Assembly (NCBI GenBank): GCA_016839915.1
Contig: JAEOTH010000137.1
Span: 1 to 37,438, forward strand
Length of the DNA: 37,438 nucleotides
Direction: 5' to 3'
DNA from: Promethearchaeota archaeon
GTDB lineage: Archaea; Asgardarchaeota; Lokiarchaeia; Sigyniarchaeales; SOKP01
Shown: positions 4,093 through 30,637 of the stretch, one piece after another
Layout: each line of letters opens with the position of its first letter
Position numbering within the stretch: position 1 is the first letter of the stretch
Notes under the pieces: model-generated
What the model was told of the DNA's origin: nothing
Seen by the model: the letters and a program-made list of their open reading frames with translations, nothing else
The model's database searches: none
Program-made: the position numbers and the translations under genes

Positions 4093-4680
4093 TTAAAATC
4101 TTTCTCTATCATTGTTAATAAGGTTCACCATTTTTTTTACCATGTGATGAGTAAGTTCGAGAAAAGCAGTTTCAACATTTTCTCCAGTTTTAGCTGATGT
4201 TTCAATATATAAACAGCCTTCTTTTTTTGCGAATTCTTTTACTTCATTCCTGTCTATTATCAGACCAATTTCAGGTATTAAATCGGATTTATTGCCAATT
4301 ATTACCCTAGGAATCTCATCATTTAAGATACTGTGCATTTCAGAAAGCCAGGTTTTCATACCTGAGAATGTATGTTGTCTTGAAAGATCAAATACAACCA
4401 ATGCACCAAATGCACCTTCATAAAAGCTACGATGAAGGAATTTAAATCTTTCTTGGCCACCAATATCCCATATCTGGAGTTTAGCAAATTTTTTTGGTTC
4501 ATATTCTAGAGTTTTTGTTAAGAAGTCAACCCCAATTGTTAATTTATATTTCAAATCAAAATGTTCATGAACAAATCTGTTTAACAAGCTCGTTTTACCA
4601 ACTGCACCGGGTCCAACAAGAATAATTTTAAAGGAAAAGCTTGGGACTTCTACATTATTTGATTTTTGCTGTTCATTCAT
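4093..4680 (-). CDS. Rab/Ras-like small GTPase (eukaryotic signature protein)
   Basis: All five G boxes are present in 195 residues: GPGAVGKT (P-loop, 23-30), the switch I Thr in KLTIGVDF (Thr48), WDIGGQERF (71-79) with the catalytic Gln, NKSD (130-133) and ETSAK (160-164). The overall pattern is closest to the Rab/Ras group that is expanded in Asgard archaea; switch II reads WDIGGQ rather than the WDTAGQ of most Rabs. The C-terminus ends NNDRERF with no cysteine, so classical prenylation is not possible and membrane attachment, if any, would be indirect. Expected to be a GTP-dependent switch. No GEF or GAP gene lies beside it; longin-like proteins that could belong to GTPase systems are at 13.6 and 34.2 kb. 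Confidence 0.93.
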   Translation of the reverse strand: MNEQQKSNNVEVPSFSFKIILVGPGAVGKTSLLNRFVHEHFDLKYKLTIGVDFLTKTLEYEPKKFAKLQIWDIGGQERFKFLHRSFYEGAFGALVVFDLSRQHTFSGMKTWLSEMHSILNDEIPRVIIGNKSDLIPEIGLIIDRNEVKEFAKKEGCLYIETSAKTGENVETAFLELTHHMVKKMVNLINNDRERF

Positions 4681-5568: not shown

Positions 5569-6198
5569 TTACTCATCCGATTTAAGACGGTTTAATTCTT
5601 TTTCTAATTCAGCTATTTTTTCATCAGAACCAGCACTTGGTAATGCTACACCCATTTCTACTTGGATTTCAGCATCTATTTCTCCTAAAACGTCCTTAAC
5701 ATCAGTATCTGTAACTGCTGTGTCGACCATTATGTCACTTATTCCATCAGTTGTGATTTCCTCAGTAACAGCAAAGTCTTCCATATCAACTCCAATAGAG
5801 GTCATCAATTCTGTAAGTTGTGGTATAGATAGTTGATTTTTTAACATCCCTAGACTTGTCGCAATTCCTTTCATTACTTCGGCAACATCTTTTACTGCGT
5901 GCGCCTGTTCTAATTTAAATACCATTCCTTCAAGGTTTGTTCTAAAGAGATCAATTGCTCTGGCCTGTTTTTTTACTTGGAGATAATTTCGTGCGTGGAA
6001 CTCAGAACCTTGCAAGTCGCCTTGTTTTCGAAGATTTACAGCCTTATCTCTTGCTAGTTTTGCTGACATCTCCATTTTTTTAGTCTGTCTCATTAATCGT
6101 TTGTTAAAAACTTTCAATTTAACTGTTGCGGAGCGAACGGTGTCCTTTCCTCGCTTTCCGCCTGATAACCAATTACTTATATCTTTAAGAAAACCCAT
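5569..6198 (-). CDS. ESCRT-III (Snf7/CHMP-like) filament protein
   Basis: The protein has the ESCRT-III layout: a short amphipathic start (MGFLKDISNWL), a long basic helical hairpin (residues 15-85, many Lys/Arg, with KRLMRQTKKMEMSAKLARDKA), a middle helix and an acidic C-terminal half. The final helix IAELEKELNRLK has the Leu spacing of an MIT-interacting motif (MIM1) and could bind the MIT domain of the Vps4 encoded next door. ESCRT-III polymers remodel membranes in cell division and vesicle scission. I place the start at the ATG at 6198; a TTG at 6207 would add three residues. A TATA box at about 6221-6235 lies some 30 nt upstream. It resembles the CHMP1-3/Vps2-24-46 class, which sits beside vps4 in other Asgards, but that subclass call is uncertain. 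Confidence 0.88.
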   Translation of the reverse strand: MGFLKDISNWLSGGKRGKDTVRSATVKLKVFNKRLMRQTKKMEMSAKLARDKAVNLRKQGDLQGSEFHARNYLQVKKQARAIDLFRTNLEGMVFKLEQAHAVKDVAEVMKGIATSLGMLKNQLSIPQLTELMTSIGVDMEDFAVTEEITTDGISDIMVDTAVTDTDVKDVLGEIDAEIQVEMGVALPSAGSDEKIAELEKELNRLKSDE

Positions 6199-6220
6199 AT
6201 TTATCAATTAGTTAGTAATT

Positions 6221-6235
6221 ATATAATATATAAAT
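6221..6235 (-). promoter_or_regulatory. Candidate TATA box of the ESCRT-III gene
   Basis: On the minus strand the sequence reads ATTTATATATTATAT, centred about 30 nt before the chosen ATG at 6198. That spacing fits an archaeal TATA box feeding a leaderless or near-leaderless message. It forms one half of the divergent promoter region shared with vps4. Confidence 0.5.
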
Positions 6236-6348
6236 GCTATGATGGGTATTTAATTTTTTGGAGACCAATCATTATTCTCGTTAGGTTAAAGAGTAAATTT
6301 GATATATGCAAATAAGATTATTAAATATATTTATGCTAAATTAGATTA

Positions 6349-6361
6349 GCTATAAATAGAA
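6349..6361 (+). promoter_or_regulatory. Candidate TATA box of vps4
   Basis: TATAAATA at 6351-6358 is centred about 30 nt before the vps4 ATG at 6384, the spacing expected for a leaderless archaeal transcript. No Shine-Dalgarno-like sequence precedes this ATG, in contrast to the downstream vps25 gene. Confidence 0.5.
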
Positions 6362-6383
6362 TAATTATTTTGATTTAGTTATT

Positions 6384-7601
6384 ATGTCATCAGTAGATTC
6401 GAAACTTTATCAATATGCCGTTCAAACGGCAAAAGAAGCAGTTAAATTTGATAACCAAGGCAAATATAGACAGGCTATAAATCAATATCAAAGAGCAGCT
6501 GAGATTTTGATGCAATTTATGAAATATAATAAAAATCCTCAAATGAGAATGTTATGTCAAAGAAACATTGAAGAATATGTTGATCGGGCAAAAATTCTAA
6601 AATCACATTTAAGTGGGGTAAGGCCGAGGAGAGCAAGACCTATTGGTAGACGCGGTGACGCCCAAGATGCTGAAGCAGATTCCGGAGAAGTTGGAGTTTC
6701 GTCAGAAGAACAAGAACTTATTGATAGCATCTCGGGAACTATTGTTACAGAATCTCCTAAAGTAAACTGGGAGGATATTGCGGGTTTGGATAATGTTAAA
6801 CAAGCTTTAAGAGAAGCCATAGTTCTCCCAATAGCAAAGCCAGAATTATTTGTTGGTGCTAGAAAACCATGGTCTGGAATATTATTATTTGGTCCGCCTG
6901 GATGCGGGAAGACTTTACTAGCAAAAGCTGCAGCTACCGAATGTAAAGCTACATTTTTTAGTGCTTCTTCCGCTGACTTGCTAAGTAAATGGTTAGGTGA
7001 AAGTGAAAAATTAATTAGCTCGTTATTTAAAGTTGCCCGGTTAAAAGCACCTAGTTTAATATTTATGGATGAAATAGATTCTATTACTACAAAACGGGGA
7101 GAAGGTGCTGAGAGCGGTGGTGAGAGGAGAGTTAAAACACAGCTTTTAAGTGAAATTCAAGGTCTAAAGTCGACTCACGACAAACCATTATTAGTTTTAG
7201 GAGCCACAAATCGCCCTTGGGATATTGATAATGCTATGCTAAGCAGATTTGAGAAAAGAGTGCATGTACCCCTTCCAGATTTAAAAGCTAGGGTAGGAAT
7301 CTTTAAAATTCATACAGAAGGAGTAACATCATCGCTAAGTGATGAAGATTTTGTAGAATTAGCAGTAAGAACTGAAGGATACTCTGGTCGGGATATAGCA
7401 AACATATGTCGTGAAGTAATAATGCTACCAGTGCGTGAACTAGATATGGGTGGACTTTTAGAAGACTCGAGCAAAGAAGTGAAAGTTAGAGATATTAATT
7501 TAAAAGATTTTAAGAAAACTCTCAAAAAAGTCAAACCTATGACGAATAAAGTATTATTAAAGCAATATAACGACTGGGCAGAAGAATTTGGGGAAATATA
7601 A
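6384..7601 (+). CDS. vps4: Vps4-type AAA ATPase with N-terminal MIT domain
   Basis: Residues about 5-75 form a three-helix MIT domain (AVQTAKEAVKFDNQGKYRQA is typical of it), followed by a flexible Arg/Gly/Asp-rich linker (80-105) and one AAA+ module. Visible motifs are GPPGCGKT (Walker A, 170-177), LIFMDEID (Walker B, Glu230 catalytic), ATNRPWD (sensor 1, Asn276) and SRFEKRVHVPLPD (arginine-finger region). The length of 405 residues matches eukaryotic Vps4. The enzyme would bind ESCRT-III tails through MIT and pull subunits out of the filament using ATP. Its neighbours, ESCRT-III (divergent) and Vps25 (19 nt downstream, same strand), support this role directly. Confidence 0.96.
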   Translation: MSSVDSKLYQYAVQTAKEAVKFDNQGKYRQAINQYQRAAEILMQFMKYNKNPQMRMLCQRNIEEYVDRAKILKSHLSGVRPRRARPIGRRGDAQDAEADSGEVGVSSEEQELIDSISGTIVTESPKVNWEDIAGLDNVKQALREAIVLPIAKPELFVGARKPWSGILLFGPPGCGKTLLAKAAATECKATFFSASSADLLSKWLGESEKLISSLFKVARLKAPSLIFMDEIDSITTKRGEGAESGGERRVKTQLLSEIQGLKSTHDKPLLVLGATNRPWDIDNAMLSRFEKRVHVPLPDLKARVGIFKIHTEGVTSSLSDEDFVELAVRTEGYSGRDIANICREVIMLPVRELDMGGLLEDSSKEVKVRDINLKDFKKTLKKVKPMTNKVLLKQYNDWAEEFGEI

Positions 7602-7610
7602 AATCATTTA

Positions 7611-7615
7611 GAGGG
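7611..7615 (+). promoter_or_regulatory. Shine-Dalgarno sequence of vps25
   Basis: GAGGG ends 5 nt before the ATG at 7621. It lies in the 19-nt gap after the vps4 stop, which suggests a vps4-vps25 operon in which the second gene is translated by ribosome binding while the first looks leaderless. Confidence 0.65.
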
Positions 7616-7620
7616 TTAAA

Positions 7621-8514
7621 ATGGAAAGGCAGAGAGAAAAATCTACAGAAGTTCCTAAAGAGGTTAAGGAAAGAGCAGAAAAAGAGTTAGGAGAATTACG
7701 AAAAGAGCTTTCAAGATTAAGAAAAATAAAAAAAGAGAAAGAACAATTAGAAATCGAGGCAGCTCAGAAACAAATTATTAAGGAAGATGAAATTAAAACG
7801 ACTGAATTAAATTACATAGAAGAACAATTTGATAAACTTGAAGATATATTATCCTCTAAAATAGGTGAAATAGACCAAAAATTATATCGCCAGCATGCTA
7901 AACAGGTTGAAGCTGAACTACAAAACCTCGAAGAAGAAATTGTTGGTGAGAAGGGTTTAATCGAAAAAAAAATAACTGCTTATGAAAATTTAGTAAAATC
8001 ATATCCTTGGCTTGAAGAAGAACGCAAGAAGTTTATGTATACTATGCCTAACAAGAAGCAAAGTAAAAATGAATATGAATCTTGGAAAATTGAATGGGCA
8101 AAAGTTCTTTTTGATTACGCTAGATTTGCCGTTCTTCATATTATATATATCAGAGAATTGAATTCTCAAAAACCATTTTTTGATTTTACTAAACGAGAGC
8201 AATATATTAGAGAAATTGCTGAAGAATTGATCAGCCAAAATCAGGCAAAATGGCTATCAAAAGAGAAAAAAGGATTAAGAGTATATTGGAAAACACTCGA
8301 ATCTTGGTCAAAAGAAATTTATAAATGGTGTTATGATAATGGAAAGCTCGAGCCGATAATGATTTATGAATTAAGGGAAGCAACACAAGAAGATTTTAGT
8401 TCACTTCCACTGGAGGATCTGGAAGAGATTTTTAAGATTTTAGCTAAAAATCGTAAGGCAAAAATTCTAAAACTAGAAAATGGACAATTAGCGTTTAAAA
8501 TCAAATTGGAGTAA
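7621..8514 (+). CDS. vps25: ESCRT-II subunit Vps25 with N-terminal coiled-coil extension
   Basis: The C-terminal ~172 residues (126-297) match Vps25 in order: the YPW start, NKKQ and ESWKIEW of the first winged helix, then AKWLSKEKKGLRVYWKTLESW, IYKWCYDNG, IYELREAT and the last winged helix ending KAKILKLENGQLAFKI. Human Vps25 is about 176 residues, so this part alone is a complete Vps25. Ahead of it are about 110 residues of almost uninterrupted charged helix (15-125), a predicted coiled coil absent from eukaryotic Vps25. In ESCRT-II, Vps25 links the complex to ESCRT-III. It follows vps4 by 19 nt, has its own ribosome binding site, and is convergent with the vps22 gene. Confidence 0.9.
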   Translation: MERQREKSTEVPKEVKERAEKELGELRKELSRLRKIKKEKEQLEIEAAQKQIIKEDEIKTTELNYIEEQFDKLEDILSSKIGEIDQKLYRQHAKQVEAELQNLEEEIVGEKGLIEKKITAYENLVKSYPWLEEERKKFMYTMPNKKQSKNEYESWKIEWAKVLFDYARFAVLHIIYIRELNSQKPFFDFTKREQYIREIAEELISQNQAKWLSKEKKGLRVYWKTLESWSKEIYKWCYDNGKLEPIMIYELREATQEDFSSLPLEDLEEIFKILAKNRKAKILKLENGQLAFKIKLE

Positions 8515-8528
8515 TAGAATCCGTTCTT

Positions 8529-9242
8529 TTATAAGGAAGGGAAGTACCATTGCTTTCCTGTCAAAATATTTTCTCTGAATTTTGCAATACCAGTCTTTTC
8601 GAGCGAATCTAAAGCTCGAAGTGCACGATCTTGAGACCACTCTAAATTAACGCACACATCTTCTAAAGTAAGGACTCCTTTCTCTTTTGCTAAATCTACA
8701 ACTTTCGATTCATCTCCAGTGTATTGAATAGGAAAAAATCTAACAATAATTGCTCCTGAATCTAATTGAGTTATATCCTCTATTACCCTCGTTTTTTTTA
8801 ACAGCTTCAATGCTTTTTCAACATCTTTCACCTCAATGTTGCCTATTAGAATTCCAGTATTGACTAGTTCAAATACTTCTGATAAAGGAATTATTCCACC
8901 TGTTTCTTCCTTGCTCATCAACACTCTTTGGTAGGCTAACATCCCTAATTTCTGATGATCAATTTTAGAGAACTTTCTTAATACATCATGCTCTGTTATT
9001 TGTTCAGTTATGATTTTCGAAGATGGTATCTTATATTTTTTCTGAAGTTCTTTTATTTCTTGTCTCAACTCTGGTGTTAAAGCTAATAATATACCATGTT
9101 TCTTTGCTAGATCACGAAGTCGGTCTTTAGTAAATTTTTCAACGGAGGCTTTAGCTTGCATATCTTTCATTTTTAGTTCAGCAGCCTTTTTTTTCATTGC
9201 TTCCTTTAAATCTATCTCATCTTCAATCTTTCGTATTCCCAT
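8529..9242 (-). CDS. vps22: ESCRT-II EAP30-domain protein (Vps22/SNF8-like)
   Basis: The 237-residue product aligns by eye with SNF8/Vps22: an N-terminal basic helix (AMKKKAAELKMKD), a helix with Asp/Arg repeats, LTPELRQEIKELQKK near residues 55-69, then two winged helices containing KIDHQKLGMLAYQ, GGIIPLSEVFELVN, VEKALKLLKK, GAIIVRFFPI and LEWSQDRALRALDSLEKTGIAKF. The end GKQWYFPSL corresponds to the C-terminal YWLP of SNF8. It would pair with Vps25 in ESCRT-II; a separate Vps36 is not seen in the window, so this protein might fill both EAP30 positions. A TATA box sits about 28 nt upstream of the ATG at 9242. Confidence 0.88.
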   Translation of the reverse strand: MGIRKIEDEIDLKEAMKKKAAELKMKDMQAKASVEKFTKDRLRDLAKKHGILLALTPELRQEIKELQKKYKIPSSKIITEQITEHDVLRKFSKIDHQKLGMLAYQRVLMSKEETGGIIPLSEVFELVNTGILIGNIEVKDVEKALKLLKKTRVIEDITQLDSGAIIVRFFPIQYTGDESKVVDLAKEKGVLTLEDVCVNLEWSQDRALRALDSLEKTGIAKFRENILTGKQWYFPSL

Positions 9243-29348: not shown

Positions 29349-30464
29349 TTATGCACTAGTTCTATATGCTTTAACTTTTTTTACGATTACATTTACTTCT
29401 TCCGAATGAGAAAATAAAGCGCATGGAGATCCATTAGTTTCTAATAAATGTTCACTTTCTCGAATAATCTTAAATAATTGGCTATTTAATCCTGCTCTTA
29501 ATGAAGTTTTGGTTAAATTATGGGTTGCGATGTTAGAAACCGGACATGGGGTCAAATCTCCTGATGGTGTTATATGAGCAAAACCTCTCCCTGCAGACAC
29601 ACAACCCCCCATATATTCTTCATCTCCAGGAGAATGAACAAGAAATATCTGTTTGGTTTCTCGATAATATAAAACCATTTCTCTAAATTTTTTTCTTTCT
29701 TCAGTTGTGAGCATTAATTCTGTATCATTATCTACGGGGATATATTCAAGAAAGAAAGCTAAGCGTACACCTTTAGATATTAGATCATCGACATTTGTTG
29801 GTTCCATCCAAAATTTAACATTTTTTCGGTTTATAGTCACAGAAATTCCACTAATCACTCCCTTGCTATCTAACTCGTTAATTGTATTAATAGCTTTTTC
29901 ATAAACTCCGATTCCTCTCCGTTTATTAGTTAAATCTTGATCTCCTTCAATACTAACCATTATTATAGTATTTCTTAATCGTTTAAGCTTTTCAATTTCT
30001 TGACTCTCCAAGATTGTTCCATTAGTAAAAATTAAGAATAATCTATCTTTGAATTCTTCACTAATTTTTAATAAATTTGGCTTTAAGAAAGGTTCTCCTC
30101 CTGCGATAATAAACGCAAATACACCTAGTTCTTTTGCTTCTTGAATAATTTTTATCCATTGCTCTAAATGTAATGAGTTTTTGGTCCTTTGGTTGCATAT
30201 TGTTCCTGTTGCTGTAACATAACAACCTGCACATTTAAGGTTACAATTGGAGGTTATGCTTAGAATCAAGAATGGGGGCACTTTTAAGCCTTTAAGTAAC
30301 TCTTCTCCTCTTATCTTTCGAGATTTTCTGTAAGATTTCGCTAATCTCATCATTGCGTACATACTTTTTGGATGCTTTAAAATCCAGGGCATGAAGATTT
30401 TTGCCATTGAAGGATCGACTTTTTTTAGAGTACGGTTTATATAATTAGAATTTTTTTCGTCCAT
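29349..30464 (-). CDS. Radical SAM protein with C-terminal Cys region (SPASM-like)
   Basis: Residues 70-85 carry the radical SAM motif ITSNCNLKCAGCY (Cys74, Cys78, Cys81; C-x3-C-x2-C), which binds the [4Fe-4S] cluster that cleaves S-adenosylmethionine. Further SAM-binding features are FIIAGGEPFLKPN and SIEGDQDLTNKRRGIGVY. The C-terminal part has CVSAGRGFAHITPSGDLTPCPVSN and a final SPCALFSH, the kind of extra Cys set used for an auxiliary cluster in SPASM/twitch proteins. Such enzymes often modify peptides, cofactors or heme. No obvious small peptide substrate gene lies next to it, so the target is unknown. Confidence 0.87.
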   Translation of the reverse strand: MDEKNSNYINRTLKKVDPSMAKIFMPWILKHPKSMYAMMRLAKSYRKSRKIRGEELLKGLKVPPFLILSITSNCNLKCAGCYVTATGTICNQRTKNSLHLEQWIKIIQEAKELGVFAFIIAGGEPFLKPNLLKISEEFKDRLFLIFTNGTILESQEIEKLKRLRNTIIMVSIEGDQDLTNKRRGIGVYEKAINTINELDSKGVISGISVTINRKNVKFWMEPTNVDDLISKGVRLAFFLEYIPVDNDTELMLTTEERKKFREMVLYYRETKQIFLVHSPGDEEYMGGCVSAGRGFAHITPSGDLTPCPVSNIATHNLTKTSLRAGLNSQLFKIIRESEHLLETNGSPCALFSHSEEVNVIVKKVKAYRTSA

Positions 30465-30637
30465 AATTTCTTCCTTTTTCCATTATCTTATTAGACTTAA
30501 ACATTATATTATTTGTATGATTTTTAAGAAAGTTATGCTTAACTTATAATTTCAGTAGTCCAATTTTTACTGCAAAGAGAAAAACTAATAAAAATTTACC
30601 TGAAGAAAATAAATAAAACGTCTTAAAAGATTATAAG

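Follow-up and report, generated by a model that had tools for sequence, protein, structure and literature searches.

ESCRT proteins are membrane-cutting proteins that are also at work in human cells, and the locus described here raises the question of whether four of their genes in a row, encoding ESCRT-III, Vps4, Vps25, and Vps22, form a self-sufficient set or one part of a larger system. The window, that is, the whole stretch of 37,438 nucleotides that was analysed, makes up the whole of contig C97 in a MAG of 3.65 Mb (estimated to be 94% complete with 6.9% contamination). All named relatives are Candidatus Lokiarchaeota/Lokiarchaeia MAGs (53-86% identity), in agreement with the predicted Lokiarchaeal (Asgard) origin of the DNA. 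The explanation that we consider very probable is that the island is a conserved core locus within a two-locus ESCRT-III system, that its partners are encoded elsewhere in the genome, and that a shared promoter box probably serves co-regulation.

The original prediction comprised four contiguous ESCRT genes, with ESCRT-III divergent from a vps4-vps25 operon and vps22 convergent behind it. All four ORFs were recovered at the predicted positions and in the predicted order and orientation (Table 1), and in searches with the Snf7, MIT, AAA, Vps25, and EAP30 profiles, all four proteins scored above the curated Pfam cut-offs of their families. The 212-, 297-, and 237-residue proteins fall inside the ESCRT families according to both HMMs and matches to solved structures, and the Vps25 and Vps22 models fit ESCRT-II folds.

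Table 1. Features of the ESCRT island and its divergent promoter region (positions in the window)
Feature	Position	Strand	Basis
ESCRT-IIIA (CHMP1-3 / Vps2-24-46-like), 209 aa	5569..6198	-	Snf7 Pfam, CHMP2A/CHMP1B matches, conserved start and tail
ESCRT-IIIA/vps4 divergent promoter region	6199..6383		Conserved non-coding blocks in relatives
Putative TATA-like element of ESCRT-IIIA, TTAAATA (TTATATAA in most relatives)	6247..6255	-	Columns 67-100% at -57 to -49
Candidate regulatory box ATTGGTCTCCAAAAAA	6254..6269	-	Found in the same sense in promoters of ESCRT-IIIA, ESCRT-IIIB, and the TM/zinc-ribbon gene
Box core ATTGGTCT	6262-6269	-	-71 to -64 from ESCRT-IIIA ATG
Second conserved block GTAAATTTGATATAT, vps4 side	6293..6307 (ends approximate)	+	Columns mostly 67-97% identical, -108 to -95
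Vps4 AAA ATPase, 405 aa	6384..7601	+	Pfam; aligned to Vps4/VPS4B structures; motifs kept in relatives
Vps25, 297 aa	7621..8514	+	PF05871 (ESCRT-II), structure matches, AlphaFold model
Vps22/EAP30, 237 aa	8529..9242	-	EAP30 Pfam, SNF8 match, model fold

Read from a TTG codon, the ESCRT-III ORF spans 5569-6207 (-) and encodes 212 aa, of which the first three residues are not conserved. Because the N-terminus conserved among 23 relatives, MGFLKD, corresponds to the ATG at 6198, the start was moved to this codon as the more likely one, and the N-terminal segment then reads MGFLKDISNWL. The protein matches PF03357 (Snf7) at 5.4e-15 over profile positions 3-169 of 171, with the Snf7-family core helices present. 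Among solved structures it matches CHMP2A (1.2e-10) and CHMP1B best, with Asgard ESCRT-IIIB ranking behind (44.9 bits for CHMP2A versus 25.6 for the Vps20/32/60-like structure), and a profile of the 23 relatives gives the same ranking (CHMP1B/CHMP2A 58.8, ~6e-15, versus 40.7 and 29.3 for ESCRT-IIIB). By match scores and profile ranking, rather than by a phylogenetic tree, the island protein is assigned to the A-type (ESCRT-IIIA), closer to CHMP1/2/3 than to CHMP4-7/Snf7. Its C-terminus, IAELEKELNRLK, resembles a MIM1; such a tail is present in all aligned relatives, which share its key positions, and it carries E where the CHMP2A consensus has R.

Vps4 contains MIT (2.7e-15, residues 10-74), AAA (3.5e-40), AAA_lid_3, and Vps4_C domains, all above cut-off, and its alignment with solved Vps4 structures covers MIT through AAA. 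Its Walker A (GPPGCGKT, 170-177), Walker B (IFMDEID, 226-232), and pore loop (KWLGES) motifs are intact, while the segment of the arginine-finger pair (first residue at 287) reads LSRFEK here and in close relatives and LRRFEK in more distant ones, the second R being kept and the first replaced by S. Vps25 matches PF05871 at 8e-13, 9uyv at 1.2e-46, and the Odinarchaeal Vps25 crystal structure 7pb9 at 1.5e-22. In its AlphaFold model, the chain forms tandem winged helices from about position 120 onwards (mean pLDDT of at least about 90 for 121-240), preceded by a helical N-terminal extension (1-118) modelled at low confidence, with 7pb9 as the top fold match (E 7.9e-11, TMt 0.80) and human and yeast Vps25 (3cuq_C, 1xb4) also recovered. 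Vps22 matches EAP30 (PF04157, 4.5e-13) over residues 1-219, comprising an N-terminal helix of low model confidence and tandem winged helices. It is nearer to human SNF8 (7e-9) than to VPS36 (5e-4) in sequence, and its modelled fold likewise ranks SNF8 (3cuq_A, 2.6e-10) over 3cuq_B, with yeast Vps22 at 9e-8. It is the sole EAP30 protein found in the genome, which agrees with published accounts of Asgard archaea as having one Vps22-like protein (Hatano et al. 2022, PMC9192718; Makarova et al. 2024, PMC10936438), and the extended N-terminus of Vps25 likewise has its counterpart in the additional N-terminal subdomains published for Asgard Vps25 (PMC10936438). As a side observation, three fairly complete family genomes (G114, G127, G132) contain ESCRT-IIIB, and Vps25 was not matched among the 10 candidates scored per genome, a number that may have been too small to reveal it.

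Gene order was compared across the window and 78 relative loci, all of which were picked for encoding Vps25. The pair vps4> vps25> is retained in 79 of 79 loci across the phylum, and vps22< follows in 41/42 family loci (14/14 in the genus and 27/28 in the further family). Among the 37 testable family loci, 36 carry ESCRT-III in divergent orientation to vps4 (10/11 in the genus and 26/26 among further family loci with enough sequence), the single genus exception having ESCRT-III 4.2 kb away. The order ESCRT-III< vps4> vps25> vps22< is thus near-universal in the Lokiarchaeal family of the window, and the island is a conserved core ESCRT locus of this family. In families f3 and f4 of the same order, ESCRT-III adjoins vps4 in 0/10 loci. 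Some loci of other Asgard classes (L101, L107, L111, L112) share the core of the window within the larger arrangement ESCRT-IIIB< ESCRT-IIIA< vps4> vps25> vps22< Vps28<; in these loci a Vps28-like gene and the two ESCRT-III types stand side by side or almost so, whereas in the family of the window the genes for the B-type and for Vps28 lie apart from the core. The family therefore seems to have split a larger ESCRT cluster, although the direction of this change is inferred. A Ras/Rab-like small GTPase gene lies two genes from ESCRT-III (window 4093-4680, -); most of the genus loci have it close to ESCRT-III, loci beyond the genus rarely do, and it was dropped as a conserved ESCRT-III partner for this reason.

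The gene set itself is of an already known kind, since this arrangement can be deduced for GC14_75, the first Lokiarchaeum, whose Vps4 (KKK42121.1) and CHMP1-3/Vps2-24-46 (KKK42122.1) carry neighbouring accession numbers and whose CHMP4-7/Vps20-32-60 (KKK44605.1) lies elsewhere (PMC7240154, PMC11791191). In both genomes the A-type ESCRT-III therefore sits beside Vps4, with adjacency in GC14_75 deduced from the accession numbers, and the two differ in sequence divergence and in nothing fundamental. Surveys of Asgard Ub-ESCRT systems (PMC9192718, PMC10936438) likewise describe Vps25 as tightly linked to Vps4 and ESCRT-III, with the ubiquitin and ESCRT regions separate in Lokiarchaeota. The typical arrangement in PMC10936438, however, is vps25 co-directed with vps4 and ESCRT-III, in contrast to the divergent ESCRT-III of this family.

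ESCRT-I, ubiquitin, and a second ESCRT-III are all absent from the 37 kb window, as the original prediction had stated, and this absence is what would favour reading the island as a minimal ESCRT-II/ESCRT-III/Vps4 set acting alone. A whole-genome search for Vps28, Ub, E1/E2, and a second Snf7 protein nevertheless placed these parts on other contigs of the same genome. The second Snf7 protein, on C188, is ESCRT-IIIB (9fn1, a Vps20/32/60-like structure, E=6.8e-101), and the same contig encodes a steadiness-box protein, which is a marginal match (24.9 bits in the genome search, and 27.4 against a cut-off of 26.8 for the protein). Vps28-like proteins are encoded on C82 and C46, and C208 carries Ub-like proteins, E1, E2, and JAMM in one row, so that Ub, E1, E2, a deubiquitinase, and ESCRT-I parts all occur in the genome of the island. 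C188 was tied to the organism, like C109 (see below), via close orthologs in the same genus. Of 65 family genomes, 63 gave a match to ESCRT-IIIB, which in a few cases was a short fragment or a weak match to the A-type paralog. Because ESCRT-IIIB is matched in most family genomes and lies on C188 here, the ESCRT-III system is divided between two loci, one of which is the island. Of the two possibilities originally left side by side, location of the missing parts elsewhere is therefore borne out, whereas an island working on its own is highly improbable.

Several features of these distant genes were recorded in passing. The ESCRT-IIIB frame (L005:1684-2355, -) has ATC where 9fn1 has its start Met, with no in-frame ATG, GTG, or TTG upstream, and ESCRT-IIIB of some relatives likewise has ATC or ATA at this position. 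Three Ub-like proteins (L128:4956-5381, L128:7248-7580, and L130 on C163), two of them within the Ub-E1-E2-JAMM cluster, lack a terminal Gly-Gly and instead finish with ...IPASTAG or ...IPASIAG. On C46, L008:3969-6338 encodes a protein of 789 aa whose PCI/winged-helix repeats resemble UFL1/DDRGK and whose C-terminal domain is Vps28-like.

How these parts may act together can be outlined by analogy with what has been published on proteins from Loki, Heimdall, and Odin, from which the biochemical order is taken. Vps22 and Vps25 would form ESCRT-II and recruit ESCRT-IIIB encoded on the other contig, consistent with the Vps25-ESCRT-IIIB contact seen in two-hybrid tests of Asgard proteins (PMC9192718). 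ESCRT-IIIB would in turn recruit ESCRT-IIIA into composite membrane-bending polymers; Asgard ESCRT-IIIB coats membranes and recruits ESCRT-IIIA (PMC11804906), and Loki CHMP4-7 tubes are altered by CHMP1-3 (PMC11791191). The MIT domain of Vps4 would then bind the MIM1-like tail of ESCRT-IIIA and disassemble the polymer, and interactions between the Asgard Vps4 MIT domain and ESCRT-III subunits have been both modelled and measured (PMC7240154). Upstream parts would be contributed by the Vps28-like and steadiness-box proteins and the ubiquitin cluster. Since ESCRT-III and Vps4 are also common to Cdv, the locus could instead be a Cdv-type cell-division operon as in Sulfolobales, and control of cdvA transcription by aCcr1 in Saccharolobus (PMC7617429, PMC12796447) would suit such a reading of a regulated ESCRT promoter. 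The presence of Vps25 and Vps22 within the same locus, the eukaryote-like split into A- and B-type ESCRT-III, and the reported absence of CdvA from Asgard archaea (PMC7617429) make this unlikely compared with ESCRT-I/II-linked membrane remodelling. A role in division is nonetheless compatible with everything found at this locus, next to vesicle release and protein sorting as conceivable functions.

What is new is a candidate box in the divergent promoter region, ATTGG(T/A)CT, and the candidate third gene to which that box leads. The box core lies immediately upstream of the TATA-like element, itself a putative part of the ESCRT-IIIA promoter, and the same word, in the same sense, precedes the ESCRT-IIIB gene both here and in relatives. 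Strict TTGGWCT was found within 220 bp upstream in 24/37 ESCRT-IIIA, 25/30 ESCRT-IIIB, and 18/30 C109-type promoters, the last belonging to the third gene, compared with 5/356 control promoters (1/202 for six families of neighbouring genes and 4/154 at other ORFs). The resulting Fisher p-values (7e-19 or lower for each of the three sets) overstate the significance, since orthologs were treated as independent. Because this non-independence inflates the p-values, all 7-mers with one free position were scored over the three promoter sets and compared with control gene-family triples: TTGGNCT came out on top with a minimum -log10 p of 13.2, versus 4.6 for the best word of any control triple. Against shuffles, the worst-group log enrichment of 7-mers (3.49) was only slightly above the null (3.00), and it is the count-weighted comparison with control gene families that gave the clear result.

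The box could also be an ordinary core-promoter feature, ATTGGWCT being a BRE-like element of strong genes, and in ESCRT-IIIA promoters it is indeed followed immediately downstream by a BRE-like, A-rich stretch and the TATA-like box. Such a feature would hardly be so rare in the control promoters. Moreover, the pattern ATTGGWCTMNNNWAAA, built from both ESCRT-III promoters, has only 7 sites in the 3.65 Mb genome (1 for the reversed control), of which two are the ESCRT-III promoters, one lies upstream of a gene on C109, and most others fall within or just after genes. The distance from box to start is also unequal among genes (about -72 versus -135). A core-promoter element is thus an improbable explanation, and a specific regulatory site is preferred. 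The box was absent from ESCRT-IIIA promoters of genus g2 (L086-L088), was undetected at ESCRT-IIIA in L078 and L072, and was not found in this genome upstream of the steadiness-box (114 bp examined), Vps28-like, or Ub genes. Two other approaches were set aside: the strict 14-mer TTTTGGAGACCAAT as a regulon marker had its only other exact copy inside a thiolase-like gene (C12), and the longest common substring of the ESCRT-IIIA and ESCRT-IIIB promoters was not above shuffles, because these regions are AT-rich. Elsewhere in the window, a Radical SAM/SPASM gene (29349-30464, -) has ATTGGACTA upstream at 30556, about 99 bp before its start, and is a first additional candidate for the set.

The C109 gene (C109:782-1354 of G000, locus L192) encodes a protein of 191 aa that has a zinc ribbon at its C-terminus and hydrophobic segments likely to lie in the membrane, and that gives weak winged-helix-like hits; this protein type is conserved across most of the Lokiarchaeal family. 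The box lies about 75 bp upstream; this site was chosen by the pattern, and therefore only the orthologs count as a test. Orthologs in other genera (about 55-65% protein identity) also have the box. Genus g2, in which the box is missing at ESCRT-IIIA, has no clear C109 ortholog, a joint absence that fits the link and yet is a single event.

On these grounds, ATTGG(T/A)CT is a candidate ESCRT-III regulon box shared by ESCRT-IIIA/vps4, ESCRT-IIIB, and the membrane/zinc-ribbon gene. As a putative binding site for a shared regulator it probably co-regulates these unlinked genes, and a promoter signal common to them suggests that the ESCRT genes are turned on jointly, along with that of a membrane protein. 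Neither the box nor the third gene was found described in the literature searched (open-licence full texts). Saccharolobus aCcr1, a transcription factor whose recognition sequence occurs in several promoters, that of an ESCRT-linked gene included (PMC7617429, PMC12796447), belongs to another lineage and acts on other genes, and is a precedent in kind only. We put forward more tentatively the possibility that one transcription factor acting on ATTGG(T/A)CT co-regulates ESCRT-IIIA with Vps4-Vps25, ESCRT-IIIB, and the ~190-aa C109 protein, and that the latter is a partner of ESCRT-III not recognised before, which perhaps serves as membrane anchor in the place of CdvA.

Collectively, the island contributes a well-supported case, and its comparison a map of gene order across the family, to the study of Asgard ESCRT genes, which are central to the origin of eukaryotic membrane trafficking and division. 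The box offers a direct handle on genes that may be switched on alongside ESCRT-III and names a candidate partner; if the proposed co-regulation is true, the C109-type protein may be a new ESCRT-III partner in Lokiarchaea.
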